A stretch of 64,000 bases of DNA, taken from contig JACRNC010000016.1 of the NCBI GenBank assembly GCA_016219375.1, forward strand, positions 124,001 through 188,000. The letters are read 5' to 3'. The position numbers and the translations under genes were made by a program. Positions within the stretch are counted from its first letter, which is position 1. Every line of letters begins with the position of its first letter. The DNA comes from Burkholderiales bacterium. Lineage in GTDB: Bacteria > Pseudomonadota > Gammaproteobacteria > Burkholderiales > Burkholderiaceae_C. The notes under the pieces were generated by a model. It did not search any database and was not told the DNA's origin. It was given only the letters and a program-made list of their open reading frames with translations. Shown piece after piece: positions 19,096 to 44,196 of this stretch.

Positions 19096-19461
19096 TCATG
19101 CCGCGTCTTCGAACCCCGGCAGGCGCGGCTGCTGCTTGCGCATCATCTGGCGCCGCACGTGCGCCAGGATGTTGTAGATCTGGACCTCGCTGAGCTTGTA
19201 GCGCAGGGCCAGCTCGGGCACGTTGCGGCCGTCGTGGGCGCGGTAGATCTCCATGTCGCGCCGGGTCAGGTCGAACTCCAGGTCGCGCCCGATATAGACA
19301 TTCTGGCCGCCGTACTCCTTGGCCAGGTCGTGGGCAATCTCCCGCATCGTGGCCGTCGCCCGCTGGGGATCCAGGCCCAGATCGCGCACGAGCACCTCCG
19401 AGCCGATCTCCGTCAGCCGACGGATGACCAGCGCGGCCCGCTCGTTGCCCCGACGTGCCAC
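19096..19461 (-). CDS. mor: Mor/C-type transcription activator
   Basis: The 121-residue protein matches the Mor/C activator family of Mu-like phages. The N-terminal dimerisation part is (RRLTEIGSEVLVRDLGLDPQ, ATATMREIAHDLAKEYGG), then the short strand QNVYIGRD, then a C-terminal helix-turn-helix (RRDMEIYRAHDGRNVPELAL, RYKLSEVQIYNILAHVRRQ). In Mu such proteins bind a dyad centred near -43.5 and recruit RNA polymerase to middle or late promoters. Only one is present here, so it probably turns on the rightward lysis and structural genes; the repeated dyad at 32812 and 43036 is the obvious candidate target. It lies 1 base after the GemA gene stop. Confidence 0.85.
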   Translation of the reverse strand: MARRGNERAALVIRRLTEIGSEVLVRDLGLDPQRATATMREIAHDLAKEYGGQNVYIGRDLEFDLTRRDMEIYRAHDGRNVPELALRYKLSEVQIYNILAHVRRQMMRKQQPRLPGFEDAA

Positions 19462-29704: not shown

Positions 29705-29741
29705 CGTTATGATCCGCCGAACTGGTCAGCATGACTAGTCA
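29705..29741. promoter_or_regulatory. Divergent switch region with palindrome TGACTAGTCA
   Basis: The short gap between the Ner-like and repressor genes must hold the two opposing promoters. TATGAT at 29709-29714 is a good rightward -10 box. TTGACT, read leftward from 29741, could be a -35 box. The perfect 10-bp palindrome TGACTAGTCA (29732-29741) overlaps the repressor start codon and is a candidate operator. Part of it (ACTAGTCA) recurs at 30243-30250 inside the repressor gene. Confidence 0.5.
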
Positions 29742-30831
29742 AGTTGAGCGGTATCTTAGGCCTACATGGGCCATTCAGCAAGACATACGTTGCATCATGG
29801 GCCGAAAGCTGGGGAAACCCCTCAATCTGACGCTAGAGCGGATGATGGAAGCGCTGGGCGCGAGGGACCTCAAGGCGCTCTCGGTCTCGCTGGGCGCTGA
29901 CGAGAGCACGGTGCGCAACTGGCACAAGCGTGAGAGCGTCCCGTTCGGGTGGGTGCAGCGCGTGTCTGCGATGACAGACCACCCGCTCGAATGGTTCTTT
30001 GAGAGCCATTCATCCGAGGCTGCGGGCCAGGGCGGTACGGCGCAGCGCCAGCGGGGCGAGCGGTCAAATGCGCCGTCAACGGCGCATTTGGGGGGCGCGC
30101 CGGCAAATCCGGCGGCGCCGCCGGATTTGGGAGGGGCCCTGCCATTGCAGTCGCTGGGCGTGCGCCTGCCCGGCGAGCCGGCGTCCGGCAGGCCGCCAGC
30201 GGCCGCTGAACCGTCCCCCTCTTTTTTTGCCCGAGGAGGCTTACTAGTCACCCGGCATGGTGGGTCCGCTGCAGCGCACGAAGAGCACGCGTTCGCCGGG
30301 ATCGAGACGGCGGATCACCCCGAGGTGGACAACCGTGCACCGCACCTACACTCGCCAGCCGGGGGCAAGCAGGCCAAAGCAGCCGCGACGCCGTTGATGT
30401 TCAAGGCGCAGGTCCCCGGCTCCAGCAGTACGGTCGAATACGAAGTGATTCCGAAGCACAGGGGAGCATCGGGCGGCGACGAGAGGGACGCACTGCTCGG
30501 CGATGTGGCCTTCTCCGTCCCTTTCATGGTCCGGCGCTTCGGCGGCCGCCACGGCTACGAGATGCTCTACATGCGTGGTGACTCGATGGAGCCCACGCTG
30601 ACCGAGGACGACGAGATCGTCATCGACACCAACATCCGGCGCGTGGACGTGTCGGGCATCTACGCCATCAGCATCGGCGACGCCATCATGATCCAGCGCG
30701 TCCAGCGCAACCTGGACGGCTCGCTGATCGTGATGAGCGACAACCAACGCTACAAGCCCACCACCCTGGCACGCAGCGAGGTGGGCACGCTACAGATCGT
30801 CGGCCGCATGGTGTGGCCGCGGGTGCGGTAG
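29731..30831 (+). CDS. CI-type repressor with a degenerate S24 peptidase domain
   Basis: A 366-residue lysogeny repressor. Residues about 35-92 are a CI-type helix-turn-helix (LERMMEALGARDLKALSVSL, GADESTVRNWHKRESVPFGW, then DHPLEWFF). A long Ala/Pro/Gly-rich linker follows, then an S24 (LexA-like) domain with MRGDSMEPTL (Ser285). Where cleavable relatives have the catalytic Lys (typically VKRxQ) this protein has IQRVQ, with Gln322, so self-cleavage is doubtful. It faces the early operon and should keep it off. ATG 29731 has no ribosome site; ATG 29797 (MGRKLGK) is a possible alternative start that still keeps the DNA-binding domain. Confidence 0.85.
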   Translation: MTSQVERYLRPTWAIQQDIRCIMGRKLGKPLNLTLERMMEALGARDLKALSVSLGADESTVRNWHKRESVPFGWVQRVSAMTDHPLEWFFESHSSEAAGQGGTAQRQRGERSNAPSTAHLGGAPANPAAPPDLGGALPLQSLGVRLPGEPASGRPPAAAEPSPSFFARGGLLVTRHGGSAAAHEEHAFAGIETADHPEVDNRAPHLHSPAGGKQAKAAATPLMFKAQVPGSSSTVEYEVIPKHRGASGGDERDALLGDVAFSVPFMVRRFGGRHGYEMLYMRGDSMEPTLTEDDEIVIDTNIRRVDVSGIYAISIGDAIMIQRVQRNLDGSLIVMSDNQRYKPTTLARSEVGTLQIVGRMVWPRVR

Positions 30832-32811: not shown

Positions 32812-32864
32812 GCACTCAACCGGTTTACATGGCCTCCTGACTCCCTGCGGGCAACACTGCCCGC
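32812..32864 (+). promoter_or_regulatory. Candidate late promoter, copy 1 (Plys position), leaderless
   Basis: The 16-mer GCACTCAACCGGTTTA (32812-32827) contains the dyad AACCGGTT centred at 32821.5. AACACT (32853-32858) lies 34 bases on, flanked by the perfect inverted repeat GCGGGC/GCCCGC (32847-32864), and the endolysin ATG follows at once. A dyad at -43.5 would put +1 at 32865, the A of the ATG. No Shine-Dalgarno is present. The same arrangement recurs at 43036-43089. Confidence 0.65.
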
Positions 32865-33326
32865 ATGGATGACGCCACCCTCAGCCCCCACTTCCGCCTG
32901 TCGGAGCTGACCGTCTCGCAGACGGCCGTGCGCCGGGGGCTGCGCAATGATCCGCCGTCGGGTGCGGTGTCCAACCTGCGCCGCCTGGCGCATGCGCTGG
33001 AGGACGTGCGCCGCGCGCTGGGCGACGTGCCCATCATCGTCTCCAGCGGCTACCGCTCGCCCAAGGTCAACAGCCTGGTCGGCGGCTCGCCCACTAGCCT
33101 GCACCTGCAGGGCCTGGCGGCCGACTTCACCGCGCCGGCCTTCGGCACCCCGCGGCAGATCTGCCAGCGCATCATCGACGTCGGCATCCTTTATGAGGAG
33201 CTGATCTTCGAGGGCGCCTGGGTGCATTTCGGCCTTGCCGCGCCTGGCGCGGTGCCGCAGCGCAAGCTGCTCACGGCCATCTTCCTCAAGGGCGGCCCCA
33301 CCCGCTACGTCGGGGGGCTGCTGTGA
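32865..33326 (+). CDS. Endolysin, M15-type peptidase
   Basis: A 153-residue D-Ala-D-Ala carboxypeptidase/L-Ala-D-Glu-type endopeptidase that cuts peptidoglycan cross-links for host lysis. The zinc-peptidase signature is clear: VPIIVSSGYRSPKVNSLVGG, TSLHLQGLAADF (metal-binding His and Asp) and WVHFGLA (third ligand His). The N-terminus (LSPHFRLSELTVSQTAVRRG) is typical of phage M15 enzymes and confirms the start, which lies directly at the end of the promoter element and lacks a ribosome site. The protein is small and without a signal peptide, so a holin is needed. Confidence 0.9.
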   Translation: MDDATLSPHFRLSELTVSQTAVRRGLRNDPPSGAVSNLRRLAHALEDVRRALGDVPIIVSSGYRSPKVNSLVGGSPTSLHLQGLAADFTAPAFGTPRQICQRIIDVGILYEELIFEGAWVHFGLAAPGAVPQRKLLTAIFLKGGPTRYVGGLL

Positions 33327-33556
33327 TGCCCGCCGGTGTGCCCCACGTCATCGTCGCGGAGCCTCAGTGCAAGCCGTGGTGGCGCTCCAAGACGCTGTGG
33401 CTCAACGCGCTGGTGCTGGCCTTGGCGGCAGCGGAGCAGCAAGTCGGCGTGCTCCAGGGCCTGCTGCCGGTCAGCACCTACCAGCTCGTCGCCTTCGGCC
33501 TGCCCGTGCTCAACGCCGTGCTGCGCCTCATCACCACGCAGGGGATCAAGCTGTGA
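33326..33556 (+). CDS. Holin-like small membrane protein
   Basis: A 76-residue protein with two hydrophobic segments (SKTLWLNALVLALAAAEQQV and VSTYQLVAFGLPVLNAVLRL) after a short polar N-terminus. The WRSKTLWLN start is common in phage holin-like proteins. Its ATG overlaps the endolysin stop (TGATG). The place between endolysin and Rz supports the holin call. Confidence 0.7.
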   Translation: MPAGVPHVIVAEPQCKPWWRSKTLWLNALVLALAAAEQQVGVLQGLLPVSTYQLVAFGLPVLNAVLRLITTQGIKL

Positions 33557-33918
33557 GCGCGCCCGTGCTGCCCCCGCTGGGCGTGGCCGCGCAGAGCGAG
33601 ACCATGCTGGTGTCCGGCTGCGTGTGCATCGCCGTGGAGGACGCGCCGGCTGAGCAGCGCCTAGCTGATCTGCGCTTTAGCGTCGGGCTGCTGCAGCAGA
33701 TGGCCCACCTGGCGCAGCACGAGCTGACCACGGCCCTGCCCGCCATCGACGCCGCGTACCTGGACCAGCAGCTGGAGCGCCAGGCCGATGTGCCGCCGCT
33801 GCACCCCGGCCCCAACGCCCATCAGCCGCAGTGCGGCCGTGGCGGTTGCCGACTGCCCGCCGGCAGCACCTGCCCCGACTGCGGCCGCTGCCTGGTCGAT
33901 GTGCCGGAGGGCGCGTGA
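33553..33918 (+). CDS. Phage protein with a C-terminal Cys cluster
   Basis: A 121-residue protein ending in CGRGGCRLPAGSTCPDCGRC, a zinc-ribbon-like set of cysteines. The N-terminal two thirds are helical (RLADLRFSVGLLQQMAHLAQ). The start is GTG 33553, which overlaps the holin stop (GTGA); ATG 33604 is an alternative. It lies in the lysis cassette but its role is unknown. Confidence 0.6.
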   Translation: MSAPVLPPLGVAAQSETMLVSGCVCIAVEDAPAEQRLADLRFSVGLLQQMAHLAQHELTTALPAIDAAYLDQQLERQADVPPLHPGPNAHQPQCGRGGCRLPAGSTCPDCGRCLVDVPEGA

Positions 33919-34538
33919 TGGGCTGGCTGCTCAAGCTCCGCGCGCTGCCGTGGGCCGCGTACGCCTGGTCGTTGGCGACCGTGGTGGCGGTCGCCGCCCT
34001 CGTCTGGCTGATCTACCTCCTGGGCCGCCTGGACGAGCGCGCCATCCAGGCCACCGCACACGCGCAGCGCACGCAAGAGGCCGTCCAGGCCGCCCTGCGC
34101 GAGCAGGCCGCATCGCTTGCGCGTGGCGCGGCCGACGTGGCCGCCCTGCGCCAGGAGCGCGACCAGCTCCAGCGCCGCTACACCGACCTGCAACGGAGGC
34201 TCGCCCATGTGCCCAAGCTCAGCCCCACGCCGGGCTGCACCGACCCTGCTGGCGTGCGCCTTACTGCTGGCGCTGTCCGCCTGTGGAACGCCGCCCTCGG
34301 CCATCCGGATGTGCCCGCCGGTGCCTGCGGAGCTTATGGCCCCGCTGCCGGAGCTGGAGCCGCTGACCGAGACGCCGCCTGCAGCCAGCCCAGCGGTATC
34401 ACGCTGGAGCAGGCCGGCGACAACGCCCAGCGCAACTTCAGCACCTGCGCGGCCATCCGCGCGCAGTGCCAGGCCCTCATCAGCAACCTCCAGCGCGAGC
34501 GCGCGCTGAGCACTCAGCAACTCACGGAGACCCCATGA
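33918..34538 (+). CDS. Rz-like inner-membrane spanin
   Basis: A 206-residue protein with an N-terminal membrane anchor (YAWSLATVVAVAALVWLIYL) and a coiled coil (TQEAVQAALREQAASLARGA, ALRQERDQLQRRYTDLQRRL), the Rz layout. i-spanins pair with an outer-membrane lipoprotein to fuse the membranes in the last step of lysis; the matching Rz1 is nested in another frame at 34207. The ATG overlaps the upstream stop (TGATG). The C-terminal part is longer than in lambda Rz. Confidence 0.75.
   Translation: MGWLLKLRALPWAAYAWSLATVVAVAALVWLIYLLGRLDERAIQATAHAQRTQEAVQAALREQAASLARGAADVAALRQERDQLQRRYTDLQRRLAHVPKLSPTPGCTDPAGVRLTAGAVRLWNAALGHPDVPAGACGAYGPAAGAGAADRDAACSQPSGITLEQAGDNAQRNFSTCAAIRAQCQALISNLQRERALSTQQLTETP
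34207..34509 (+). CDS. Rz1-like outer-membrane spanin lipoprotein, nested in Rz
   Basis: A 100-residue protein in the +1 frame fully inside the Rz gene. MCPSSAPRRAAPTLLACALL then LALSACGTPPSA gives a lipoprotein signal with the lipobox LSAC, followed by a Pro-rich segment (MCPPVPAELMAPLPELEPL), the hallmark of Rz1. ACGGAGG lies 8-14 bases before ATG 34207. The far C-terminus is low complexity and may be frame-shadow sequence, so the functional part may be the first 55-65 residues. Confidence 0.75.
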   Translation: MCPSSAPRRAAPTLLACALLLALSACGTPPSAIRMCPPVPAELMAPLPELEPLTETPPAASPAVSRWSRPATTPSATSAPARPSARSARPSSATSSASAR

Positions 34539-34870
34539 GCCAGACGAACAACTTCCCCATCGAGACCGATGGCTTCAAGTTCACGGCCACGGCAGCCAGC
34601 CAGGCCTTCGACCTGACCGGGGGCGGCGCAGCAGACCGCTTCCGCGTCGTCGGCTCGGACGACGTGCTGATCTACAACCCCGGCCCCAACACGATCTACG
34701 TGAAGGCCGGCGACGCCAGCACCGTGGCCTTCGGGATCGCCAGCAGCACGCCCAGCATGGCCGTGCCGCCCTCGCAGCAGGCCTTCAGCAAGGGCAATGC
34801 CTCGCACCTGGCGGTCATCAGCCCCAGCGGTGCGCAGGAGTTCGTGGTCTACGTCGGCCGGGGGGAGTGA
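34535..34870 (+). CDS. Phage structural-type protein of unknown function
   Basis: A 111-residue beta-rich protein (MSQTNNFPIETDGFKFTATA, RFRVVGSDDVLIYNPGPNTI, SHLAVISPSGAQEFVVYVGR). Small proteins of this pattern are found as head or tail decoration in several phages. It overlaps the Rz stop and is followed 3 bases later by the SGNH hydrolase gene. The exact role is unknown. Confidence 0.6.
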   Translation: MSQTNNFPIETDGFKFTATAASQAFDLTGGGAADRFRVVGSDDVLIYNPGPNTIYVKAGDASTVAFGIASSTPSMAVPPSQQAFSKGNASHLAVISPSGAQEFVVYVGRGE

Positions 34871-34873
34871 GTC

Positions 34874-36364
34874 ATGGCGCGTAGTCGATGGATGGGAGCG
34901 TCTGCAGCGGGCGGTCGTGGCGCGGCCTTCAGCGCCGCCCGCCCCACTCTGCTGCCGTTTGGCTGCAGCATCACCGGCGTGGCGGGGCGACAGCTCTGGA
35001 ACTCCACCACGGTCACCTCGACAGCGGTGCGTGCTGGCTCGCAAGTCATTCCTGTCGCCTCTGCCGCCGCCTTCGTTGTCGGGGGCTGGGCGCAGGTTGC
35101 CCTGTGTACGGCCGAGCCGTGGATGTCGCGCGTGACCGCGGTTGATACAGCGGCTACTCCAAACACCGTAACGGTTGCCGATCCGCTGCCGGAGAGCCTG
35201 CTCCCGAACAATCCCGTCCACTATCAAGCGGCTTCGGTGTCTACGCCGAGCAGTCAGCACATCAAGACCAGCTTGTGGGTAGGCGCCAATGCGGAACTCG
35301 GCGGAGTGGTCGAGGTTCTGCCTGCCTACAGCTACACGGGCGCGCGTCAGGATGCGATGCTGCCTGCGCTCGCGCGTCTGCTGCGGTTGTATCGACCTAA
35401 GTATGTCGCCCTCAACTTGGTCGAGAACGATGTCAACGGTAGCGTCAGCCTGCCGCGAATCGTTGAGCTGTCCCGACAGGCCGTCCGGTCCTGTCTGAAC
35501 GCTGGGGCGACTCCGCTGGTCTGCTCCTGCGTTCCGGCGACGCAGTTCTCCGACTCGCGCAGCTCGCTCGTCGAGGGGTATCTCTCGTGGGTGCGGCAAG
35601 TGGGCAGCGAGCTGCCTGGCGCTGTGGGCGTTGACCTCACAACGCCGTGGCGCGATGCGTCGCTACCCGGCTACCAACCACTGGCCGGGTACACGGACGG
35701 CATTCACCCCAGCGCTTCCCGTTGGCATACGACTGCCCAGCCCTTCGTGAGCGTGCTGCAGCAGCTCGAAGGGGCGCGCCCGTCTCTCGCCGACCTTGCG
35801 CTCACCTATTGGGACATGTCGGGCGCCGGAGGCACCGCCGCTGCCTTGCAGGCGGGCAGCGTGGTTCCCACGGGCTGGACGATCAGCGCAGAAGCGGGGG
35901 TCATCGCTACGACGACGAAGATCGCCAACGACAAACCTCGCATTCAGTACTCAGTGCCGGGTGCCTCGAACGCCAGCACCACCCGGCTGTTCGTGCGGCA
36001 GCCAAATGTTGCCATCCCGGACTACTACGTCGGCAAGTACATGACCGCGTTCATGAAGGCGCGCTTCGACCAGATCGCGAACCTCAGCATGGCGGTCATG
36101 AGCCTGACGTTCAACTCGGGGGAGGTTGTGTATTGGGGCAACTACAACGGCCAGGCGACCGACCCGGCTCTGGTAGGGAGAACATTGGTGATGGAAACGC
36201 CCGCATTCCGTGTGCCAGCCAACGCCACCACGATGACTCTTGAGCTCGCTCTGCGCCCCCTGAACATCGCCAGCCCCTCCGGGGTGTCGGTGGACATGAC
36301 CATTGACAGTGCTGGGTTGCTGCCGGCATCGGCAGGAAACAGCTACGACAACGGGTGGCGGTGA
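34874..36364 (+). CDS. SGNH/GDSL-type hydrolase of the prophage
   Basis: A 496-residue protein. The SGNH blocks are recognisable: FGCSITG near residue 30 (nucleophile Ser), LNLVENDVNGS (block III Asn) and GYTDGIHPSASRW (catalytic Asp/His near 275). The C-terminal 200 residues look like a beta-sandwich. Enzymes of this fold remove acetyl or acyl groups from polysaccharides or lipids; in phages they appear as tail-associated deacetylases or as surface-modifying cargo. The gene is visibly less GC-rich than its neighbours and sits between the lysis cassette and the first head gene, which suggests a recent insertion of a cargo gene. Confidence 0.7.
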   Translation: MARSRWMGASAAGGRGAAFSAARPTLLPFGCSITGVAGRQLWNSTTVTSTAVRAGSQVIPVASAAAFVVGGWAQVALCTAEPWMSRVTAVDTAATPNTVTVADPLPESLLPNNPVHYQAASVSTPSSQHIKTSLWVGANAELGGVVEVLPAYSYTGARQDAMLPALARLLRLYRPKYVALNLVENDVNGSVSLPRIVELSRQAVRSCLNAGATPLVCSCVPATQFSDSRSSLVEGYLSWVRQVGSELPGAVGVDLTTPWRDASLPGYQPLAGYTDGIHPSASRWHTTAQPFVSVLQQLEGARPSLADLALTYWDMSGAGGTAAALQAGSVVPTGWTISAEAGVIATTTKIANDKPRIQYSVPGASNASTTRLFVRQPNVAIPDYYVGKYMTAFMKARFDQIANLSMAVMSLTFNSGEVVYWGNYNGQATDPALVGRTLVMETPAFRVPANATTMTLELALRPLNIASPSGVSVDMTIDSAGLLPASAGNSYDNGWR

Positions 36365-36365
36365 C

Positions 36366-36707
36366 ATGCTCGACTTCTCCGACCCCCGCTTCTGGCTCGA
36401 TCTGGCCAAGTGGCTCATCGCCCTGGCCGCGGTGGTGGCCGTCTGGATGCGCCGCCCCGGTGAGGACGCCGCCAAGGCCGTCTCGCAGCTCGAAGAGGAG
36501 GTCACGCGCACGCAGCATGCGATGGCCACGCGCCTGACCCAGATCGAAGAGCGCATCGCGCACATGCCCACCGACGACGAGCTGGAGCGCCTGATCGGCA
36601 CCGTCAAGGCCATCGAGGCTCGCCTCACCGGCCTGGACAGCGGCCAGAACACCATGCGCCACCAGCTCAACCGCATCGAAGACTACCTGCTCAAGACCAA
36701 GCAATGA
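36366..36707 (+). CDS. DUF2730-like phage protein (Mu gp25 type)
   Basis: A 113-residue protein: N-terminal membrane helix (FWLDLAKWLIALAAVVAVWM) then a coiled coil (MATRLTQIEERIAHMPTDDE, LIGTVKAIEARLTGLDSGQN). This matches the DUF2730 family that precedes the packaging genes of Mu-like phages. Its role is unknown. The stop overlaps the next ATG by 4 bases. Confidence 0.75.
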   Translation: MLDFSDPRFWLDLAKWLIALAAVVAVWMRRPGEDAAKAVSQLEEEVTRTQHAMATRLTQIEERIAHMPTDDELERLIGTVKAIEARLTGLDSGQNTMRHQLNRIEDYLLKTKQ

Positions 36708-36997
36708 GCTTTGCTGACGTGATGCAAGAAGACCGCCGGCTGACCATCCTGAAAGGGCTGGAGCCGGCAGCCGGCTATCGCGCCGCCCAGTTCGTGCTGG
36801 CCCGCTGGTGCGAGCAGTTCGGCCACGTGGTCAGCCAGGACCGCCTGCGCCAGGACCTGGCCTGGCTGGCCGAGCAGGGCCTCATCAAGCTGGAGACGCC
36901 CGAGGGCGTGTATGTCGCCACGCTGACCGCCCGCGGGCTGGATGTGGCCACCGGCCGCGCCGTGGTGCCGGGCGTGGCCAAGCCCCAGCTCGTCTGA
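36704..36997 (+). CDS. Mu gp26-like winged-helix protein
   Basis: A 97-residue protein with an ArsR-like winged helix (LTILKGLEPAAGYRAAQFVL, DRLRQDLAWLAEQGLIKLET, YVATLTARGLDVA). Mu-like phages carry such a gene between gp25 and gp27, ahead of the terminase genes; function is not established. Overlaps the gp25-like gene by 4 bases. Confidence 0.75.
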   Translation: MSFADVMQEDRRLTILKGLEPAAGYRAAQFVLARWCEQFGHVVSQDRLRQDLAWLAEQGLIKLETPEGVYVATLTARGLDVATGRAVVPGVAKPQLV

Positions 36998-37011
36998 CGG
37001 AGGGCGCCCGC

Positions 37012-37599
37012 ATGCCGCCCGTCAGCAAGATCGCCCAGCTGCCGCCGGACATCCGCGCCTGGCTGCATCAGACCTTCGTCGAGCGCGCCTTCGGTGACAT
37101 CGAGGGCGTCACGCGGGATCTGAATGAGCTGATGAAGCAGGCCGGCGTGGCCATCACCATCGGCAAGAGCGCGGTGGGCGCCGAGAGCCAGAAGGTCAAG
37201 CGCGCACAGGAGGCCATCAAGGCCACGACCGAAGCCACGCGCCTGATCGCCGACGCCAGCCGCGACGATGGCGACAGCCGCAGCGAGGCGGTGCTGGCGC
37301 TCGTGCAGTCCGAGGTGTTCGAGCTGCTGCTGCAGATCCGCGAGTCCGAGGACGAGGTGGACCCGGTGGAGCGCCTCAAGGCCCTGCGCGGCATCGGCAA
37401 GACGGTGGCCGAGATGTCCCGCGCCCGTGTCAACCAGGCCAAGTGGCGGGCCGAGGTAGACGCCCGCGCCCAGGCCGCGGCCGACAAGGTAGCCAAGCTC
37501 GCCAAGAAGGGCGGCGCCGATCCTCAGACCATCCGAGAGATCCGCGAGTCGATCCTGGGCATCGTCAAGCGCGCACCGTCGCCGGAGGGGGTCGCATGA
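37012..37599 (+). CDS. DUF3486 protein, likely small terminase (Mu gp27 type)
   Basis: A 195-residue, mostly helical protein: KIAQLPPDIRAWLHQTFVER, GVTRDLNELMKQAGVAITIG, then long helices and KLAKKGGADPQTIREIRESI. It matches DUF3486, the probable small terminase subunit of Mu-like phages that recognises DNA ends for packaging. GGAGG lies ahead of ATG 37012. The stop overlaps the large terminase start (ATGA). Confidence 0.8.
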   Translation: MPPVSKIAQLPPDIRAWLHQTFVERAFGDIEGVTRDLNELMKQAGVAITIGKSAVGAESQKVKRAQEAIKATTEATRLIADASRDDGDSRSEAVLALVQSEVFELLLQIRESEDEVDPVERLKALRGIGKTVAEMSRARVNQAKWRAEVDARAQAAADKVAKLAKKGGADPQTIREIRESILGIVKRAPSPEGVA

Positions 37600-39230
37600 C
37601 TGTGCCTCTGCGCGACAACCCGCTCAAGGCGCTGCATGCTGGTGAGTGGGCTGACGTACCCGCAGTCCTTCTGAGATACCAGCAGGAGTGGATCGCTGAC
37701 CGCTCGCCGTTGAAGGTGGCGGACAAGGGGCGTCGCGTGGGGCTGACCTGGGCCGAGGCAGCCGACGACGTACTCGACGCGATGGCGGAAGTCGACAGTT
37801 GCAACACGTTCTACTGTTCTGCTGCTCAGGACATGGCACGCGAATATGTCGAGGCCTGCGCCATGTGGGCCCGCGCGTTCCACTGCTTGGCAAGCGAGAT
37901 CCAGGAGGGCGTTTTCGATGACGGCGATGCCGTCGCCGACCCGGCCAAGCGCTACATCAAGACGTTTGAAGTTGTTTTTCCCAGGACTGGTCGGCGGATC
38001 GTCGCGCTCTCAAGTCGGCCGACGAACCTGCGCGGCAAGCAGGGCAACATCGTCCTCGACGAAGCGGCGTTCGCTCCCGACCTGGCAGGCATGCTCAAAG
38101 CGGCAATGGCCATGCTGCTGTGGGGCAACCGGGTCAAGATCATCAGCACGCACAACGGGGTGGACAACCCGTTTAACGAGCTCATCGAGCAGATCAAGGC
38201 TGGCAAGCGGCCGGGCAGCTTGCACCACATCCCATTCCAACGCGCGATCGCGGACGGCTTGTACCGACGCGTGTGCCTGCGCAAAGGCATCGAATGGACG
38301 CCTCAGGGAGAAGCCAAGTGGGTGGCGGATGCCTATGCGTTCTACGGTGACGACGCATCCGAAGAGCTCGACGCCATTCCCAGCGCCTCGGGCGGCAAGT
38401 ACCTCAGCCTGGCTTTGTTGGCCGAGCGCATGACCGTCACCGCAGAATCTGGCCGCTGTCCGATCGTGCGCCAGCGCTGGGATGACTCATTCGCCTATCA
38501 GCCGGAGAGCGTGCGCGAGTTCGCGATCAAGGGTTGGCTGATGGAGAGGGTGCTGCCCGCGCTGCAGCGGCTCAATCCGCTGCACCGCCATGTGTTTGGC
38601 CTGGACTTCGGTCGCGTCGCGGACCTTAGCGTCATGACGGTCTTGGACGAGGATGCTGAACTGGTGCACCGCCCGCGCCTGGTGATCGAGCTTGGCAACT
38701 GCCCATTCAGCTCACAGGATCAGATCTATTGGTTCGTAATCGATCGGTTACCACGCTTCCGTGGCGGCGCGGCGGACTCCGGCGGAAATGGCGCAGCGAC
38801 AGGTGAGAAGCTGGCGCAGCGTTATGGCACGGCGATGGTGGAACAGGTCAAGTTCAGCCAGGGCTGGTATGCGCTGAACATGCCCAAGCTACGCGGCGGC
38901 CTCCAGGACGGAACGCTGCGCGACCTGCCGCGTGATGAGGAGCACCTCTCCGACCTGCGTGCGATCGAGGTAGTCAAAGGCATACCGATGGTGCCGGCGG
39001 TAAACACGGCCAGCGCGGCAGCAAAGGCCGCGGCGGCGGAAGGCGGCGCGAAGAAGCGTCGTCACGGCGACTATGCCGTCAGCCTGTGTCTGGCCGAGTA
39101 CGCCTTCCACCGCGAAGCCGGCGAGATCGCCTTCACGCCCGCGCCCTCCAAGGCCAGCCAGTTCGAGGGCTTTGGCGACCGCGATGACGACCTGATCAGC
39201 CGCGCGGGCTGGGATGTCGGATGTGTCTGA
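37596..39230 (+). CDS. Terminase large subunit (Mu gp28 type)
   Basis: A 544-residue packaging motor. The ATPase part has KVADKGRRVGLTWAEAADDV (the Mu-type variant of Walker A) and GNIVLDEAAFAPDLAGMLKA (Walker B with catalytic Glu), then KIISTHNGVDNPFNELIEQI. The nuclease part has HVFGLDFGRVADLSVMTVLD (first acidic metal ligand) and the C-terminal RHGDYAVSLCLAEYAF with a later Asp. It fills proheads in a headful manner together with the DUF3486 protein. Some stretches use less GC-biased codons than the neighbours. Confidence 0.9.
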   Translation: MTVPLRDNPLKALHAGEWADVPAVLLRYQQEWIADRSPLKVADKGRRVGLTWAEAADDVLDAMAEVDSCNTFYCSAAQDMAREYVEACAMWARAFHCLASEIQEGVFDDGDAVADPAKRYIKTFEVVFPRTGRRIVALSSRPTNLRGKQGNIVLDEAAFAPDLAGMLKAAMAMLLWGNRVKIISTHNGVDNPFNELIEQIKAGKRPGSLHHIPFQRAIADGLYRRVCLRKGIEWTPQGEAKWVADAYAFYGDDASEELDAIPSASGGKYLSLALLAERMTVTAESGRCPIVRQRWDDSFAYQPESVREFAIKGWLMERVLPALQRLNPLHRHVFGLDFGRVADLSVMTVLDEDAELVHRPRLVIELGNCPFSSQDQIYWFVIDRLPRFRGGAADSGGNGAATGEKLAQRYGTAMVEQVKFSQGWYALNMPKLRGGLQDGTLRDLPRDEEHLSDLRAIEVVKGIPMVPAVNTASAAAKAAAAEGGAKKRRHGDYAVSLCLAEYAFHREAGEIAFTPAPSKASQFEGFGDRDDDLISRAGWDVGCV

Positions 39231-39364
39231 CAAGCCCGCCGCCGTTTTGAACGGCTTTTGAACGTTCAATTTCGACGATCGCGGGCCGGTGGCTACATCC
39301 GCCCGTCCCGCCCCGGAAAAACGCCCCAAACGCCCGCGCCGCACACCCGACCCCGGAGCCCCGC
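39231..39364. promoter_or_regulatory. Intergenic region with two palindromes ahead of the portal gene
   Basis: GCCGTTttgAACGGC (39241-39255) and the perfect 12-mer TTGAACGTTCAA (39258-39269) lie side by side; both contain TTTTGAACG. The patch is AT-richer than its surroundings. It is a candidate operator or promoter between terminase and portal; nothing else is visible in the gap. Confidence 0.4.
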
Positions 39365-41023
39365 ATGCCCACCCTGCTCGACCAGTTCGGCAACCCCATC
39401 GACCTGGCCGCCATCCGCGAGCCGCAGACCGAGGCGGCGGAGAACCGCTCCAGCGTGTCGTGGATGTCGCGCGAGTTCGCCCGCCACCCCGGCCGCGGCC
39501 TGACCCCGGCGCGGCTCAACGCCATCCTGCAAGCCGCGGAAGAGGGCGACCTGCTCGGCCAGCTCGACCTGGCGGATGACATGGAGGAGCGCGACGGCCA
39601 CCTCTTCGCCGAGCTGAGCATGCGCAAGGACGCGGTCGCCAACCTGGATTGGTCCATCGAGCCGCCACGCAATGCGTCCGCTGAGGAGCAGGCCCTCGCC
39701 GAGGAGCTGCAGGAGTGGATGGAGGATCTGCCCGACTTCGAAGACGGCATCCTGCGCGAGCTGCTCGACGGCATCCTCAAGGGCTTTGCGTGCATCGAGA
39801 TGTGGTGGCAGCTCGACGGCGGCCGCCTGGTGCCGCGCTTCGCGCCGCGGCCGCAGCGCTGGATGACGGTGGACGAGGTCGGCAGCGAGATCCAGCTGCG
39901 CACCGCCACCGGCAACGGCCGCGGCCAGCCGCTGCGCCCCTGGGGCTGGCTGCTGCACCGCCCGCGCGCGCGCAGCGGCTACCCGGCCCGCACTGGCCTG
40001 CTGCGCGTGCTCGCCTGGCCCTACCTGTTCAAGAACTACAACCAACGCGACCTGGCGGAGTTCCTGGAGATCTACGGCCTGCCGCTGCGCATCGGCAAGT
40101 ACCCCTCGGGCGCATCGGACGCCGAGAAGCGCACGCTGCTGCAGGCGGTGGTCAACATCGGGCACAACGCCGCCGGCATCATCCCGGCCGGCATGGCGCT
40201 GGAGTTCCAGTCCGCCGCGCAAGGCAACGAAGGCCCGTTCAAGACGATGGCCGACTGGATGGAGGCCATCCAGTCCAAGGTGATCCGCGGCCAGACGCTC
40301 ACCAGCGGCGAGGGCAAGCACGGCACCCAGGCCCTGGGCACCGTGCACGAGGGCCAGGCGCTGATCATCACCAAGAGCGATGCCAAGCGCCTGTCCATCA
40401 CCATCACCGAGCAGCTGCTGCGCCCGCTGGCCCTGCTCAACAAGCCAGGGCTGGACCCGCGGCGCCTGCCGCGCTTCGTGCTCGACGTGCCGGAGCCCGA
40501 GGACCTGGCGCTCTACGCCGACGCGCTGCCCAAGCTGGCCGCCGCCGGCATGCGCATCGGCGTGGAGGACATGCACAAGCGTCTGCGCATCCCGATGGCC
40601 CGTGACGGCGAGGAGCAGCTGCGCGGTGCCCCGGCCCAGCAGGCGCCAGGCGGTGCCGCACCCACGGCCGGCCCCGCTGCTGCACCCGCGCCAGCTGCGA
40701 AGCAGCCCACCCCGCCGGCCCCGCCTACCCAGGCGAAGCAGGCCGGCCTGGCCGCCGAGCTGCCCGCCGCGCCGCGCGATGCGATCGACGAGCTGATCGA
40801 CGCGGCCACAGCCGACTGGCGGCCCGTCATGGCCCCGATGGTCGAGCCCCTGCTGGCCGAGCTGGACCGGGCCATCGCCGCCGGTGAGAGCCTTGCCGCG
40901 TTCCGCGCCCGGCTGCCCGAGCTGATCGACCAGGTCGACGGCCGCCCGCACGCCGAGCGCCTGGCGCGCGCGGCCTTCCTGGCCCGCTTGGCCGGCGAGG
41001 CCGGCGTGCTGCCGCAGGACTGA
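39365..41023 (+). CDS. Portal protein, DUF935 family (Mu gp29 type)
   Basis: A 552-residue portal that forms the ring at the head vertex. Recognisable blocks: RHPGRGLTPARLNAILQAAE, FAELSMRKDAVANLDWSIEP, GILKGFACIEMWWQLDGGRL, RVLAWPYLFKNYNQRDLAEF, LEIYGLPLRIGKYPSGASDA and EQLLRPLALLNKPGLDPRRL. The C-terminus has a Pro/Ala-rich linker (about residues 425-455) and a helical tail. Directly followed by the gpF-like gene. Confidence 0.9.
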   Translation: MPTLLDQFGNPIDLAAIREPQTEAAENRSSVSWMSREFARHPGRGLTPARLNAILQAAEEGDLLGQLDLADDMEERDGHLFAELSMRKDAVANLDWSIEPPRNASAEEQALAEELQEWMEDLPDFEDGILRELLDGILKGFACIEMWWQLDGGRLVPRFAPRPQRWMTVDEVGSEIQLRTATGNGRGQPLRPWGWLLHRPRARSGYPARTGLLRVLAWPYLFKNYNQRDLAEFLEIYGLPLRIGKYPSGASDAEKRTLLQAVVNIGHNAAGIIPAGMALEFQSAAQGNEGPFKTMADWMEAIQSKVIRGQTLTSGEGKHGTQALGTVHEGQALIITKSDAKRLSITITEQLLRPLALLNKPGLDPRRLPRFVLDVPEPEDLALYADALPKLAAAGMRIGVEDMHKRLRIPMARDGEEQLRGAPAQQAPGGAAPTAGPAAAPAPAAKQPTPPAPPTQAKQAGLAAELPAAPRDAIDELIDAATADWRPVMAPMVEPLLAELDRAIAAGESLAAFRARLPELIDQVDGRPHAERLARAAFLARLAGEAGVLPQD

Positions 41024-41027
41024 CGCC

Positions 41028-42401
41028 GTGGCTGGTGAGACCTCGCCCCTGCGCCTGGGCGTCATCGAGCCGCGGGATGCCGTCGCGGCATTCGAGCGCC
41101 GCGGCCTGCTGCAGCCTTCGTTCCGCTGGCAGGACGTCTGGCAGGAGGAGCACGCCCGCGCATTCGCCGTCGCCGGCGTGCAGCGACTGGATGTGCTGCA
41201 GACCGTGCGGGACGCGCTGGACACCAAGCTGAGCCAGGGCGGCAGCCTGGCGGACTTCCGCCGGGCCGTGCGCGGCGAGCTGGCCGCAGCCGGCTACTGG
41301 GGCGACGTGGAGATCACGGACCCGGCCACGGGCGAGACCCGCATGGCCCGCTTCGACAACCGGCGCCTGCAGCTCATCTACGACGTCAACGTGCGCCAGA
41401 GTTACGCGTCCGGCCGCTGGGCGGCGATCGAGCGCAACAAGAAGCTGTTCCCCTTCGTCCGCTACGTGACGATGGGCGACGAGCGCGTGCGCGCCTCGCA
41501 CAAGCCGTGGCACAACCTGGTGCTGCCGGTGGACGATCCGTTCTGGCAGACGCACTTTCCGCCGAATGGCTGGCGGTGCCGGTGCCAGGCGATGGCCGTG
41601 GACCAGAAGATGGTGGACCGGCTCAAGGCCGCCGGTCAGGACATCAAGACGCAGGCGCCGCCGGCCGACCCCATCACCTACGTCAACCCGCGCACCGGCG
41701 AGATCGTCCCCATCCCGCGCGGCATCGACCCCGGCTTCGCCTACAACCCCGGTGCGCAGCGTGACGCTGCGCTGCATGAAACGCTGTTGCGCAAGGCGTT
41801 GGAGGTGTCACCGCTGCCCGGCGCGGTGGCGGTGGCCGTGGCCACGTTCGCCAACCCGGCCATGCTGCAGCAGTCCACGGCGCGCTTCGGCGCGTGGGTG
41901 GACGACGTCATGGCCCGCGGCCAGGCGCAGGGCGAGCTGCAGTACATCGGTGCCATCGCCCCGCGGGCCGCCCGCGTGCTCGAGCAGCTGGGCCTGCAGC
42001 CCCGCAATGCCGTGATCGCCGTGCGCGATGGCGATGTACTGCACGCGCTGCGCGACGCCAAGGTTGCGGCAGGAGTGGCCCTGGACGCCTCGGTCTACCG
42101 TCGCCTGCCCGAGCTGTTGCAGCGCGCCAGCGCCATGCTGCTGGAGCGCAAGCCGGCCGCGGGCATGCAGCCCGCGCTGCTCTACGTCATCGACCTGGTG
42201 CGGCCCGATGGGCAAGTGGGCAAGCTGGTGCTGCAGCTCGACCAGTTCGTGCGCATCAAGGGCGGTGGAGAGGATGGGCGGCGGCGCTGGGTGCAGCTCA
42301 ATGTGCTGCGCACGGCCACCGTGATGGACCCGTCGGCCCTGGCGGACCGCCGCAGCTACAAGCTGCTGTGGGGCCGGCTCAGCGAGGAGCCCGGGGCATG
42401 A
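41028..42401 (+). CDS. Mu gpF-like minor head protein with a C-terminal extra domain
   Basis: A 457-residue protein. The first 250 residues are the SPP1 gp7/Mu F head-morphogenesis domain (PRDAVAAFERRGLLQPSFRW, QLIYDVNVRQSYASGRWAAI, RVRASHKPWHNLVLPVDDPF, THFPPNGWRCRCQAMA, with its conserved Cys-rich end). The last 130 residues (RNAVIAVRDGDVLHALRDAK, LLYVIDLVRPDGQVGKLVLQ, SYKLLWG) look like the phage Barnase/EndoU/ColicinE5-type nuclease-fold domains that are often fused to gpF; that part is a tentative call. Start is GTG 41028, 4 bases after the portal stop. Confidence 0.82.
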   Translation: MAGETSPLRLGVIEPRDAVAAFERRGLLQPSFRWQDVWQEEHARAFAVAGVQRLDVLQTVRDALDTKLSQGGSLADFRRAVRGELAAAGYWGDVEITDPATGETRMARFDNRRLQLIYDVNVRQSYASGRWAAIERNKKLFPFVRYVTMGDERVRASHKPWHNLVLPVDDPFWQTHFPPNGWRCRCQAMAVDQKMVDRLKAAGQDIKTQAPPADPITYVNPRTGEIVPIPRGIDPGFAYNPGAQRDAALHETLLRKALEVSPLPGAVAVAVATFANPAMLQQSTARFGAWVDDVMARGQAQGELQYIGAIAPRAARVLEQLGLQPRNAVIAVRDGDVLHALRDAKVAAGVALDASVYRRLPELLQRASAMLLERKPAAGMQPALLYVIDLVRPDGQVGKLVLQLDQFVRIKGGGEDGRRRWVQLNVLRTATVMDPSALADRRSYKLLWGRLSEEPGA

Positions 42402-42408
42402 AAAAGGC

Positions 42409-42504
42409 GCGTCACGCGGCGGAAGGCGAAACCCGCATGCAGCGACCCGAGGGAGGGGCGGGCCGCTCGACCGTGCACTGTTTTCCGGTCGCCACGCGTG
42501 ACGC
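42409..42504. repeat. Inverted repeat GCGTCACGCG / CGCGTGACGC between F and G genes
   Basis: Perfect 10-bp arms at 42409-42418 and 42495-42504 flank 76 bases without a convincing gene. A 39-codon frame overlapping the gpF stop (MKKARHAAEGETRMQRPEGG...) runs through it but has no support. It may be an RNA structure or a remnant of a small insertion. Confidence 0.5.
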
Positions 42505-42519
42505 CCGGGCAGTATAGGC

Positions 42520-42993
42520 ATGGCCGACAAGCTCGTCATCGACCTGGTCGACGCTGGCATCCAGCAGGCGCTCACCCGCGCCGCGGATCGCCTGGGCGAC
42601 CTCACCCCGCTGATGGAGAGCATCGGCATGGCCCTGCAGCAGAACATCCAGCTGCGCCTGGACCTCAAGGTGGATCCCACCGGCCAGCCCTGGGCCCCCC
42701 TGGCGCAGAGCACGCGAGACCGCTACGCTGCCGCGGACAAGGGCCGCAAGCAAGGCAGTCTGCTGGTGCGCACGGGCATGATGCGCGCGAGCCTGGGCCA
42801 CAACGCCGGCCGCGCTGATGTGGAGATCGGCTTCGGCGAGGCCTATGCCGGCTACCACGAGACCGGCAGCCGGGACGGCACCCTGCCGCGCCGCGCGCTG
42901 CTCACGGCCAACTGGCAGACCGGCCAGCTCGGCCAGCAGGACCAGGCCGATGTGCTGGGCATGGTGGCCCGCTACCTCGACGCGTTGATGTAA
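42520..42993 (+). CDS. Virion morphogenesis protein (Mu gpG / tail-completion type)
   Basis: A 157-residue protein of the phage virion morphogenesis family: LTPLMESIGMALQQNIQLRL, DPTGQPWAPLAQSTRDRYAA, GSLLVRTGMMRASLGHNAGR and GYHETGSRDGTLPRRALL. It is needed for head-tail joining or tail completion in Mu-like phages. It has the expected place after F and before the protease. Confidence 0.85.
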   Translation: MADKLVIDLVDAGIQQALTRAADRLGDLTPLMESIGMALQQNIQLRLDLKVDPTGQPWAPLAQSTRDRYAAADKGRKQGSLLVRTGMMRASLGHNAGRADVEIGFGEAYAGYHETGSRDGTLPRRALLTANWQTGQLGQQDQADVLGMVARYLDALM

Positions 42994-43035
42994 CGCGCTG
43001 ATCTGACCGGCCGTGCGCCCCGGGAGGGGCCGCAG

Positions 43036-43089
43036 GCACTCAACCGGTTTATGTGGGCCTGATGCAGGCGGCTGCCGACACTGGCAGCC
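43036..43089 (+). promoter_or_regulatory. Candidate late promoter, copy 2 (PI position), leaderless
   Basis: The same GCACTCAACCGGTTTA 16-mer (43036-43051) as at 32812, with its dyad centred at 43045.5. GACACT (43077-43082) is again exactly 34 bases on and lies in the loop of the perfect inverted repeat GGCTGCC/GGCAGCC (43070-43089). The protease ATG follows directly. The stem sequence differs from copy 1 but the architecture is identical, and no Shine-Dalgarno is visible. Confidence 0.65.
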
Positions 43090-44196
43090 ATGAAGACGCG
43101 CCCCCTGATCGCCATCCTCGCCGCGGCCCTGTCGCTGCAGGCGCAGGCCGTCGTGCAGATCCTGCCGGCCGGCGAGTTCGCCGCCCGTGACGGCCGGCCG
43201 GGCACCGGCAAGGCCTGGCGGCTCAACGACGCGCAGGGCCGTGCCCTGGCCGCGCAGCTCACCGCCATCGCGGCCAAGAGCGCCTTCGTCATCGACTACG
43301 AGCACCAGAGCCTGCGCTCGGCGGCCAACGGCCAGCCCGCGCCGGCGGCCGGCTGGGCCACGGCGTTCGAGTGGCGCGAGGGCCTGGGCCTGTTCGCCAC
43401 CGACGTGCGCTGGACCGAGGCAGCCAAGGCCCGCATCGAGGCTGATGAGTACCGCTACATCAGCCCCGTCATCCAGTTCGACGAGCGCACCGGCACCGTG
43501 CTGGGCGTCATCAATGCCGCGCTCGTCAACACGCCGGCCCTGCTGGGCATGGCCCCCGTTTCCCAGGCCGCTGAGGCCGCCCTTGCCGCCCTGTCTGCGC
43601 AAGCCGCGCAGTCGCAAACCCAAGAGGACCCCTCCATGAACCTGCTGCAGCTGCTCATCGCGGCCCTGGGCCTGAAGGCCGAGGCCACCGAGACCGAGGC
43701 CCTGTCGGCCATCGCTGCCCTGAAGAACCGCGCCGAGGCGCAGCCCGCCATCCCGCAGGCCCTGGCCGCCGCGCTGGAGATCAAGGCCGACGCGCCGGTG
43801 GACACCGCCGTGGCCAGCATCGCCGCGCTCAAGACCCGTGCCGCCGGTGGCGAGCAGTCCACCGTGGCCACCATCGCCGCGCTGCAGGCCCAGGTGGCCC
43901 AGCTCACCGCCAGCCGCCACGGCGAGCAGGTGGAGCAGCTGGTCAGCCAAGCGCTCAAGGACGGCAAGCTCGTCCCGGCCACGGCCGAATGGGCGCGCAA
44001 CCTGGGCCGCACCGACCTGGCCGCGCTGCAGACCTTCCTGGCCGCCGCGCCCGCGCTGCCGGTGGCCACGCCGCAGTCCGGCGGCCAAGCCCCGGCCGGC
44101 CAGCAGGCCGCCGCCCTCAGCGCTGAGGAGCAGCAGGTCTGCACGCTGCTGGGCCTGAGCGCCGACGACTACCGCAAGCAGCGCGCCGCTGCCTGA
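43090..44196 (+). CDS. Head maturation protease / scaffold (Mu gpI type)
   Basis: A 368-residue protein. The N-terminal protease part carries VVQILPAGEFAARDGRPGTG, KSAFVIDYEHQSLRSAANGQ, RWTEAAKARIEADEYRYISP and NAALVNTPALLGMAP, all typical of Mu protease I. The C-terminal part is Ala/Gln-rich and helical, with an internal Met (43636, MNLLQLLIAALGL) that could start a separate scaffold protein (Z) as in Mu. It processes the prohead and is removed. The start lies directly after the promoter-like element, without a ribosome site. Confidence 0.88.
   Translation: MKTRPLIAILAAALSLQAQAVVQILPAGEFAARDGRPGTGKAWRLNDAQGRALAAQLTAIAAKSAFVIDYEHQSLRSAANGQPAPAAGWATAFEWREGLGLFATDVRWTEAAKARIEADEYRYISPVIQFDERTGTVLGVINAALVNTPALLGMAPVSQAAEAALAALSAQAAQSQTQEDPSMNLLQLLIAALGLKAEATETEALSAIAALKNRAEAQPAIPQALAAALEIKADAPVDTAVASIAALKTRAAGGEQSTVATIAALQAQVAQLTASRHGEQVEQLVSQALKDGKLVPATAEWARNLGRTDLAALQTFLAAAPALPVATPQSGGQAPAGQQAAALSAEEQQVCTLLGLSADDYRKQRAAA

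Follow-up and report, generated by a model that had tools for sequence, protein, structure and literature searches.

Candidate Mor-activated leaderless late promoters with a start-codon hairpin predicted in read-through RNA of a Mu-like prophage

Ahead of an endolysin gene (lys) and of a gene for an I-type head protease, a 64,000-nucleotide stretch of Burkholderiales DNA (the window; contig JACRNC010000016.1 of assembly GCA_016219375.1) carries two closely matching elements. Judged by sequence, these are probably Mor-activated leaderless late promoters at which a hairpin would keep the start codon silent in read-through RNA. The initial annotation had offered, as alternatives, a Mor-type switch giving leaderless transcripts and a hairpin that controls translation. 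The comparisons described below support a reading of the two as halves of one device, because the 5′ arm of the hairpin sits upstream of the predicted +1, so that only read-through RNA could fold it.

Two sites with one geometry

Both sites lie within a Mu-like prophage. The features on which the argument turns are as follows.

19096..19461, - strand: Mor/C-family activator (Pfam Mor, E 1.1e-24; phrog_532, late transcriptional activator)
29731..30831, + strand: CI/S24-type repressor, reading toward lys; read-through RNA in the lysogen could come from here
32812..32827, + strand: 16-mer containing the dyad AACCGGTT (32818-32825); candidate site for a Mor-family activator at the lys promoter, centred at -43.5 from the A of the ATG
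32842..32853, + strand: hairpin 5′ arm TCCCTGCGGGCA (repeat and RNA fold)
32853..32858, + strand: AACACT, proposed -10 hexamer (A-11, T-7), in the hairpin loop region
32858..32869, + strand: hairpin 3′ arm TGCCCGCATGGA, which includes the ATG (11 of 12 pairs)
32865..33326, + strand: endolysin (Peptidase_M15_3; phrog_894), proposed leaderless start at 32865
42520..42993, + strand: Mu G-type protein (phrog_26), end of the lys-proximal late unit, which could read through into I
43036..43051, + strand: second exact 16-mer copy, dyad at 43042-43049; centre at -44.5 from the ATG, with the -10 likewise one base farther
43070..43076, + strand: hairpin 5′ arm GGCTGCC (repeat and RNA fold)
43077..43082, + strand: GACACT, proposed -10 hexamer in the loop
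43083..43089, + strand: hairpin 3′ arm GGCAGCC, its final base directly before the ATG
43090..44196, + strand: Mu I-type head protease/scaffold (Pfam Mu-like_Pro, E 8.4e-94), proposed leaderless or 1-nt-leader start

The geometry can be read directly from the DNA. The 16-mer that the initial annotation had found common to both sites, GCACTCAACCGGTTTA, is indeed exact at each. The window holds no third copy at up to 3 mismatches (shuffles averaged 0.11, and 2 of 100 had as many as 2 matches), the 3.58-Mb genome holds none elsewhere at up to 2 mismatches, and a search of the window for a third dyad gave only weak matches lacking the full geometry (12/16 at 44342 and 13/16 at 47314). The spacing from dyad to hexamer is the same at both sites, as had been claimed, but its value is not 34: AACCGGTT starts at 32818 and 43042 and the hexamers at 32853 and 43077, 35 bases apart, with 27 intervening bases. 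Also borne out is an inverted repeat that holds (A/G)ACACT in its loop and differs in stem sequence between the sites (GCGGGC/GCCCGC at 32847-32852 and 32859-32864; GGCTGCC/GGCAGCC at 43070-43076 and 43083-43089), except that the repeat at site 1 extends farther than was described, with TCCCTGCGGGCA and TGCCCGCATGGA forming 11 of 12 pairs and enclosing the ATG. Both short repeats end one base 5′ of the ATG (32865 and 43090), in keeping with the remark that the ATG touches the repeat, and no Shine-Dalgarno-like sequence was seen at either ATG, again as reported. The predicted RNA fold is strong at site 1 (-19.7 kcal/mol; z, -5.21) and only moderate at site 2 (-15.4 kcal/mol; z, -1.81), where 10 of 200 shuffles folded equally well. 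A covariance-model search of 18000-61000 against Rfam returned 0 matches at the gathering score.

In several respects, the two sites look like Mu-type late promoters dependent on Mor or C: there is a dyad near -43.5 without a consensus -35 hexamer, and the elements stand before the lysis genes and before I. The initial annotation had stated both that Mu Mor binds a dyad at -43.5 and that Mu has late promoters at these same two places. The first agrees with the available text of PMC4390567, in which the Mor-dependent middle promoter Pm lacks a -35 but has a recognizable -10 and a Mor-bound dyad centred at -43.5; as to the second, Mu lys and I occupy corresponding positions, after C and after G. 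The protein at 19096-19461, which had been called Mor-like, is the sole PF08765 match in the genome. A -10 immediately 5′ of the start without a Shine-Dalgarno sequence is, moreover, the configuration expected of a leaderless gene. Between 29600 and 33400, a range that covers site 1 only, scans found no sigma70 promoter-like match and no terminator-like site on the + strand.

We posit that both sites serve as late promoters equivalent to Mu Plys and PI and that the phage's Mor-family protein turns them on by binding the dyad at about -43.5, thereby substituting for a -35 element. Sigma70 RNA polymerase would take nACACT as the -10 and start on the A of the ATG or one base before it, and with such a start the late mRNAs would be leaderless. 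The inverted repeat around the -10 would act as RNA and not as DNA. In transcripts arriving from upstream (into lys from the repressor side, and into I from the lys unit), the 5′ and 3′ arms would pair around the -10, leaving it as the loop of a GC-rich hairpin abutting or burying the AUG, and this hairpin, together with the lack of a Shine-Dalgarno sequence, would leave the gene untranslated from read-through RNA. Transcripts started at the promoter itself would be without the 5′ arm and would present an open AUG, so only activator-driven RNA could yield endolysin and protease. We infer three things, namely, the start sites, the binding of Mor, and the translational silencing.

The promoter signature among relatives

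Relatives' loci were gathered in several lists. Three of these kept 80 of 87, 80 of 597, and 80 of 167 loci; a search of 399 genomes had a match in 34; and three other lists contributed 48, 36, and 16 loci. The first set comprised 264 loci examined, 256 of them with an I match; 255 were used, and 185 remained after I genes more than 85% identical were dropped, including 122 with a single ATG. The enlarged set comprised 358 loci, 350 with an I match and 237 non-redundant. Among these 237, 160 had one start bearing A-11/T-7 (146 after removal of similar upstream regions), 52 had no A-11/T-7 at any ATG, 17 lacked an ATG or enough upstream sequence, and 8 were ambiguous. Together with 31 non-redundant second (lys) sites, the 146 I sites make up the 177 sites used below. 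Having been picked by A-11/T-7, these 177 do not serve as evidence for the -10, which is drawn instead from the single-ATG loci without such selection; the phasing of the dyad does use them. Shuffles for -10 shifts, mismatches, hairpins, fold z scores, and second sites kept base content but not dinucleotides.

At the 122 single-ATG I loci, the ATG sits at the predicted +1 position, with A-11 in 68%, T-7 in 56%, and C-1 in 84% and with no Shine-Dalgarno-like columns before it. A-11/T-7 (or the same pair one base farther out) is found at the true place in 83/122 loci, compared with 1-8 at shifts of +2 to +8 and 4-6 at shifts of -4 to -8; the counts above background at shifts of -3, -2, -1, and +1 (14, 14, 30, and 60 of 122) arise partly because two registers were allowed. 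The symmetry of the dyad peaks at -43.5 when the -10 is 6 nt from the ATG (104 sites) and at -44.5 when it is 7 nt away (73 sites); the dyad is phased with the -10 element, not with the ATG. In B3, the arrangement is absent from the I and holin starts as annotated.

Does the dyad follow the protein proposed to bind it? A Mor open reading frame (ORF) is present in 115/210 relatives' loci having at least 8.5 kb upstream. Across 67 loci, Mor distance correlates with dyad distance (r, 0.336; 0/500 permutations), whereas the distance between I proteins does not track it (0.022; 160/500 permutations). In the predicted helix-turn-helix columns, the Mor-dyad correlation is weak (0.03-0.21); in other columns, it reaches up to 0.36. 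In addition, a search with this dyad yields, in 43/153 loci, another ATG site lying more than 6 kb upstream, against a mean of 1.1 (maximum, 3) for shuffled dyads. Because second sites were picked by dyad, A-11/T-7, and ATG, only this number and their hairpins count as evidence. Ten of the second-site proteins were tested (48 loci have such matches), and six were of lysis type by Pfam, one was DUF5675, and three had no Pfam match. A tail-region promoter of the same kind is possible: the 165 loci with 6 kb or more of sequence downstream of I yielded eight candidate sites in that part. The DMS3 record lacks a 115-aa ORF (phrog_3648) that has such a start. As a whole, a dyad at -43.5 that keeps phase with the -10, the A-11/T-7/C-1 signature, and the co-variation of dyad and Mor argue for a Mor-type switch with leaderless transcripts.

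The hairpin and the molecule in which it would act

The initial annotation had said that absence of the arrangement from close relatives would refute it; the arrangement recurs, and about half of the relatives' promoter sites are without the hairpin. At 87/177 sites, the -10 is enclosed by a hairpin that reaches up to the ATG or buries it, compared with 11.6 in shuffles (74/146 I sites and 13/31 lys sites; 90/177 have the promoter signature alone). Perfect hairpins number 63 of 177, compared with 2.6 in shuffles, and 68 distinct 3′ arms are represented. Since the sequence around these starts is GC-rich and GGCGGC is the commonest arm, the repeats might be a functionless by-product of composition. 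We regard this as very improbable in light of the excess over shuffles, the sharp peak of hairpin position at the ATG, and two controls. When 5′ segments were swapped between sites, the hairpins observed (53 and 34) exceeded those expected (21.4, maximum of 30, and 8.6, maximum of 17), also without GGCGGC. Among 99 related pairs (70-97% identity) with differing 3′ arms, 126/198 native combinations formed hairpins, compared with 29/198 chimaeras. By these tests, the arms co-vary at the sequence level. A comparison of locus pairs in fixed register found compensation no more often than slid controls did (of 298 changed 3′ bases, 75 were Watson-Crick on both sides, versus 78-106 in the controls), which we take as register drift; the swap and chimaera tests are register-free versions of the same question, and the pairs in the fixed-register and chimaera tests share loci and are not independent.

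If the hairpin is functional, is it functional as DNA or as RNA? One could imagine that the promoters are leaderless and activator dependent but that the repeat works on DNA, for instance by making a GC-rich discriminator easier or harder to melt or by placing the -10 in a cruciform loop. The repeat does straddle the -10 exactly, its right arm is the promoter discriminator, and the raw counts of folds on the two strands are near even (74 sense to 64 antisense at I sites), even favouring antisense when the window of folding stops at the ATG (54 to 85). A repeat acting as DNA, however, should accept G·T as readily as A·C; the 24 stem mismatches include 17 G·T and 2 A·C (Fisher p, 2e-4), although the bias was weaker in an earlier, looser count (12 G·T and 5 A·C among 29). 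Relative to shuffles, which is the only comparison in which the asymmetry is visible, folding favours the sense strand (Wilcoxon p, 1e-10). The stem also spans the whole ATG, downstream of +1, in 18/87 sites. We therefore think a DNA role unlikely, and the G·U bias points to action in sense RNA. The folding of the two predicted RNAs is consistent with such action: read-through windows have a mean z of -2.56 (103/177 below -2), compared with +0.74 for leaderless 5′ ends.

Granting an RNA role, transcripts could nonetheless start upstream and carry the hairpin as a 5′ untranslated-region operator, its loop recognized by a phage protein. Operators for phage coat proteins are likewise hairpins at a start codon, and the hairpins inspected in the relatives have AnnnT in or beside the loop. 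On the other hand, AnnnT persists at single-ATG loci without the hairpin (A-11/T-7 in 26/61, compared with 1-5 at shifts of +2 to +6) and is phased with the dyad, and Mu PI, to judge from an oligonucleotide in the available text of PMC4461284, appears to have its start close to where arm and loop meet in its own repeat. An operator of this kind is, in our view, decidedly unlikely. It is somewhat easier to imagine, though still improbable, that the hairpin has another job in read-through RNA, such as blocking ribosomes or RNA decay, or serving as a weak terminator or processing site. Its location and sense-strand bias would suit any such function, and upstream terminators are rarer where there is a hairpin (9/86 versus 19/87; p, 0.06), a trade-off that is only suggestive. 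Yet the stem is not followed by a U-tract at either window site, and the 3′ arm ends at 0 (37/87) or +3 (18/87) from the ATG, which favours a role at the start codon. Placement, arm co-variation, and G·U as the main tolerated mismatch thus support a hairpin that controls translation, with silencing of the start codon in read-through RNA as the role we favour.

Known systems and broader meaning

The closest relatives of the proposed device are the C-dependent Plys and PI of Mu, which serve the same two genes with an activator of the same Mor/C family. According to the available text of PMC4461284, Mu late promoters have non-consensus -10 and -35 elements, and the PI start was mapped by S1. Mu PI has a 7-bp repeat (CTGCTCA/TGAGCAG) ending six bases before the I start. 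Mu messages, however, seem to carry leaders, given that a Shine-Dalgarno-like sequence precedes the ATG of Mu I and a terminator-like repeat stands upstream of Mu lys; in the prophage, +1 is predicted at the ATG and the -10 itself would be the loop. Mu encodes two Mor/C-family proteins, Mor and C (PMC4390567, available text), compared with one in this whole genome.

A second likeness is to T4, in which, as far as the available text of PMC3014915 goes, long transcripts of e, soc, 49, and I-TevI hold the Shine-Dalgarno sequence and/or AUG in a helix, and the late promoter of gene e sits where the 5′ strand of the helix is encoded, so that late transcripts lack that strand. Here, too, by sequence and prediction, the helix could form only in long transcripts and the candidate promoter lies inside it. 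The AUG of site 1 falls within the 11-of-12-pair helix, and the helix at site 2 stops one base before the AUG. The differences are that T4 late transcripts retain a ribosome binding site, whereas those here have no Shine-Dalgarno sequence and are predicted to be leaderless; that sigma70 plus Mor would take the place of T4 late promoters; and that the element stands on at least two late genes of one phage. Finally, leaderless genes of B. cenocepacia have a promoter motif directly before the start codon instead of a Shine-Dalgarno sequence (PMC4603805, available text), to which the present sites would add an activator site at -43.5 and a hairpin guarding the start in read-through RNA. Among the mostly open-access papers covered by the literature searches, none was seen to describe the arrangement in Mu-like phages by its title, the opening of its abstract, or its available text, and the word “leaderless” is absent from the available text of PMC4378225 and PMC2628397.

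On balance, we lean slightly toward the view that the device is widespread among Mu-like phages and that each of their late start codons would be readable only in RNA beginning at that codon: at lys and at I, the -10 would be the hairpin loop and the stem would guard the start in all read-through RNA, with stems drifting and the dyad following Mor. If so, the device would account for the silencing of lysis and capsid genes without a terminator in temperate phages whose same-strand genes are tightly packed, and leaderless translation would be central to late expression in a large phage group. The arrangement would also be a predictor of start sites, the 115-aa ORF of DMS3 being an example, and many natural pairs of Mor and dyad would be available for work on specificity.

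Two matching sites in a Mu-like prophage and their relatives

The window carries a Mu-like prophage, with the following genes:

19096-19461, minus strand, Mor-family activator
23713-25077, minus strand, AAA protein
25074-26879, minus strand, transposase (phrog_310)
29731-30831, plus strand, CI/S24 repressor
start 32865, plus strand, endolysin (lys)
start 37443, plus strand, terminase
start 39365, plus strand, portal
start 42520, plus strand, G-type protein
start 43090, plus strand, I-type protease (I)

The Mor-family gene is the only match to PF08765 in the whole genome. One copy of a shared 16-mer starts 3 bases past the stop of the ORF at 32248-32808, before lys, and the other lies within the 96 bp that separate G from I; no further match was found in the 3.58-Mb genome at up to 2 mismatches. 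The initial annotation had read these sites as candidate late promoters for leaderless mRNAs, each with a dyad for a Mor-type activator, an (A/G)ACACT box in the loop of an inverted repeat, and an abutting ATG. All of the elements it named were found, although one spacing value needed correction. Within the repressor ORF, at 30065-30129, we also observed two neighbouring perfect inverted repeats, CAAATGCGCC-GTCAAC-GGCGCATTTG and CAAATCCGGC-GGCGCC-GCCGGATTTG, which have their outer ends in common and differ in their inner arms.

For comparison, I-type protease loci were sampled from IMG/VR, GTDB genomes, same-family genomes, and phage records. The first statistics come from 185 non-redundant loci among the matches listed; in 122 of these, a single ATG with enough upstream sequence precedes the conserved protein motif, so that the choice of start codon is independent of the sequence upstream. 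The last count, likewise among the matches listed, covered 358 loci, of which 350 carried an I gene; 237 were left once near-identical genes had been removed. One genome of the same family (G181:C1) carries I-type copies with equal scores at four places, and so probably four related Mu-like prophages.

A probable promoter signature at the start codon

Counting from the A of the ATG, the 122 single-ATG loci show A-11 (68%), T-7 (56%), and C-1 (84%), together with a weak A/T dyad around −47 and −40. They have no Shine-Dalgarno-like block of columns; G-rich columns at −6 to −3 are too near the ATG to be one. With one base of slack, the A-11/T-7 pair occurs at its true place in 83 of the 122 loci, versus 1 to 8 at shifts of +2 to +8 and 4 to 6 at −4 to −8; the higher counts at −3, −2, −1, and +1 (14, 14, 30, and 60) come partly from overlap of the allowed registers. 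In sigma70 promoters, the −10 element depends most on A-11 and T-7, and C-1/A+1 is among the preferred transcription starts. Based on these columns, the ATG would stand at the predicted transcription start. Single-ATG loci with a hairpin (an inverted repeat around the −10) carry the signature in 80 of 90 cases; among those without one, under a relaxed definition, it is present in 26 of 61, with shifted controls giving 1 to 5 at +2 to +6 and 10 to 12 at −3 to −1. It is wholly absent from 52 of the 237 I loci, and for many genes an ordinary start is probable.

The dyad is centred at −43.5 in 104 sites and at −44.5 in the 73 sites where the −10 sits one base farther from the ATG (mean palindrome matches of 2.92 and 3.30 out of 8; background near 1.5 to 2.5). 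Since the dyad centre shifts together with the −10, the two form one unit. PMC4390567 also gives −43.5 for Mor at Mu Pm.

A Mor-family ORF is present in 130 of the 350 loci, mostly on the same strand as I and 8 to 10 kb ahead of it; in 28 loci the distance is about 1 kb. In some phages, then, the Mor-family gene stands just before I instead of before lys, as it likewise does in the KS10 gene table (PMC2628397). Across the 67 loci that have both a Mor ORF and a single I site, Mor-protein divergence correlates with dyad divergence (Spearman r = 0.336; 0 of 500 permutations), a result to be expected of Mor-family proteins that recognize the dyad; I-protein divergence does not (r = 0.022; 160 of 500), and Mor and I divergence are only weakly correlated (0.081; 26 of 500). 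The correlation is 0.03 to 0.21 in the likely helix-turn-helix columns and higher in the N-terminal two thirds, so the comparison does not pinpoint the contacting residues.

Searching each phage for its own I dyad revealed another ATG site of the same geometry, over 6 kb upstream, in 43 of the 153 loci having at least 9 kb of upstream sequence (shuffled dyads: mean 1.1, maximum 3). Ten second-site proteins, picked from 48 loci with matches, included seven with Pfam matches (two GH108 lysozymes, an amidase, a phage lysozyme, an M15 peptidase, a holin, and DUF5675); the three with no Pfam match all belong to phrog_3648, of unknown function. In phage DMS3 (NC_008717; L136:1262-1606), a 115-aa ORF between the late activator and the endolysin, absent from the record's annotation, matches phrog_3648 (E = 8.4e-64) and has a leaderless-type start. 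In 165 loci with 6 kb or more of sequence downstream of I, eight further candidate sites lie 5 to 10 kb past I, as Mu PP would.

The hairpin and the strand on which it acts

The arrangement recurs in related prophages, as the initial annotation had proposed to check, with the hairpin absent from about half of the sites. In 177 non-redundant sites (146 I and 31 lys), hairpins with at most one mismatch number 87, versus 11.6 in shuffles, and perfect ones 63, versus 2.6. Their placement is narrow: among the 185 loci, stems of at least 6 pairs end at the base before the ATG in 36 and one base to either side in 21 and 14, with mostly 0 to 3 loci per offset beyond about 5 nt and minor clusters reaching 8 at +8/+9 and 2 to 4 near ±20 to 25. 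The 87 hairpin sites have 68 distinct 3' arms, ending at 0 in 37 sites and at +3, spanning the whole start codon, in 18.

When 5' segments were exchanged between sites, hairpins dropped from 53 to 21.4 (maximum 30) and from 34 to 8.6 (maximum 17); with the common arm GGCGGC excluded, the drops were 28 to 6.5 and 30 to 7.5. In 99 related pairs (I identity of 70 to 97%, 3' arms differing at 2 or more bases), 126 of 198 native sequences form hairpins versus 29 of 198 chimaeras. A fixed-register pair test gave no excess of compensation (75 of 298 changed 3' bases versus 78 to 106 in slid controls), which we attribute to putative drift of the stems in register and loop size.

Does the repeat act as DNA or as RNA? 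The 24 sites with one internal mismatch have 17 G·T and 2 A·C (Fisher P = 2e-4), versus 1.18 and 1.41 per pass in shuffles; an earlier count under looser rules gave 12 and 5 of 29. A sense-strand G·T is G·U in sense RNA, and a DNA repeat would not distinguish G·T from A·C, which argues for sense RNA. Measured against shuffles of matched composition, folding is also better for the sense strand than for the antisense (median −1.05 kcal/mol; P = 1e-10). Raw fold counts are near even for I sites from −26 to +4 (sense 74 versus antisense 64) and favour antisense in a window ending at the ATG (54 versus 85). On balance, the repeat looks to have been selected as sense RNA. Promoter RNA would start at the ATG and lack the 5' arm, so the RNA that folds must originate upstream.

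A model for late-gene expression

We posit that late RNA would start at the ATG, lack the 5' arm, and so leave the start open, whereas read-through RNA derived from upstream would fold into the hairpin at the start codon. The predicted read-through fold is −19.7 kcal/mol (z = −5.21) at the endolysin start, with the AUG within the helix, and −15.4 (z = −1.81) at the I start; the leaderless endolysin and I RNAs have predicted open 5' ends (−3.7 and −4.6; z = +1.53 and +1.59). Over the 177 sites, mean z is −2.56 for the read-through window and +0.74 for the first 40 nt of the leaderless RNA; since genes in general often have an open 5' end, the read-through value alone stands out. A scan of the plus strand from the repressor to the endolysin revealed no terminator-like site, making read-through into a lysis gene plausible in the lysogen. 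Upstream terminators precede 9 of 86 hairpin sites versus 19 of 87 others (P = 0.06), a scarcity that is suggestive only. Upstream of lys, Mu (L135:881-907) has a 12-bp terminator-like repeat that separates C from Plys and may insulate the lysis gene in another way.

A late promoter within an inhibitory helix is already known from T4 gene e (PMC3014915). The literature searched did not yield such a hairpin combined with leaderless mRNA, a Mor-family activator, and several late genes. Mu has the same promoters, but apparently with leaders, and its PI region has a 7-bp repeat that ends six bases before the I start. The oligonucleotides of PMC4461284 are said to include 20 nt downstream of the start, from which we infer that PI starts at the border of the 5' arm and loop. 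Mu PI may thus follow the same logic in leadered form.
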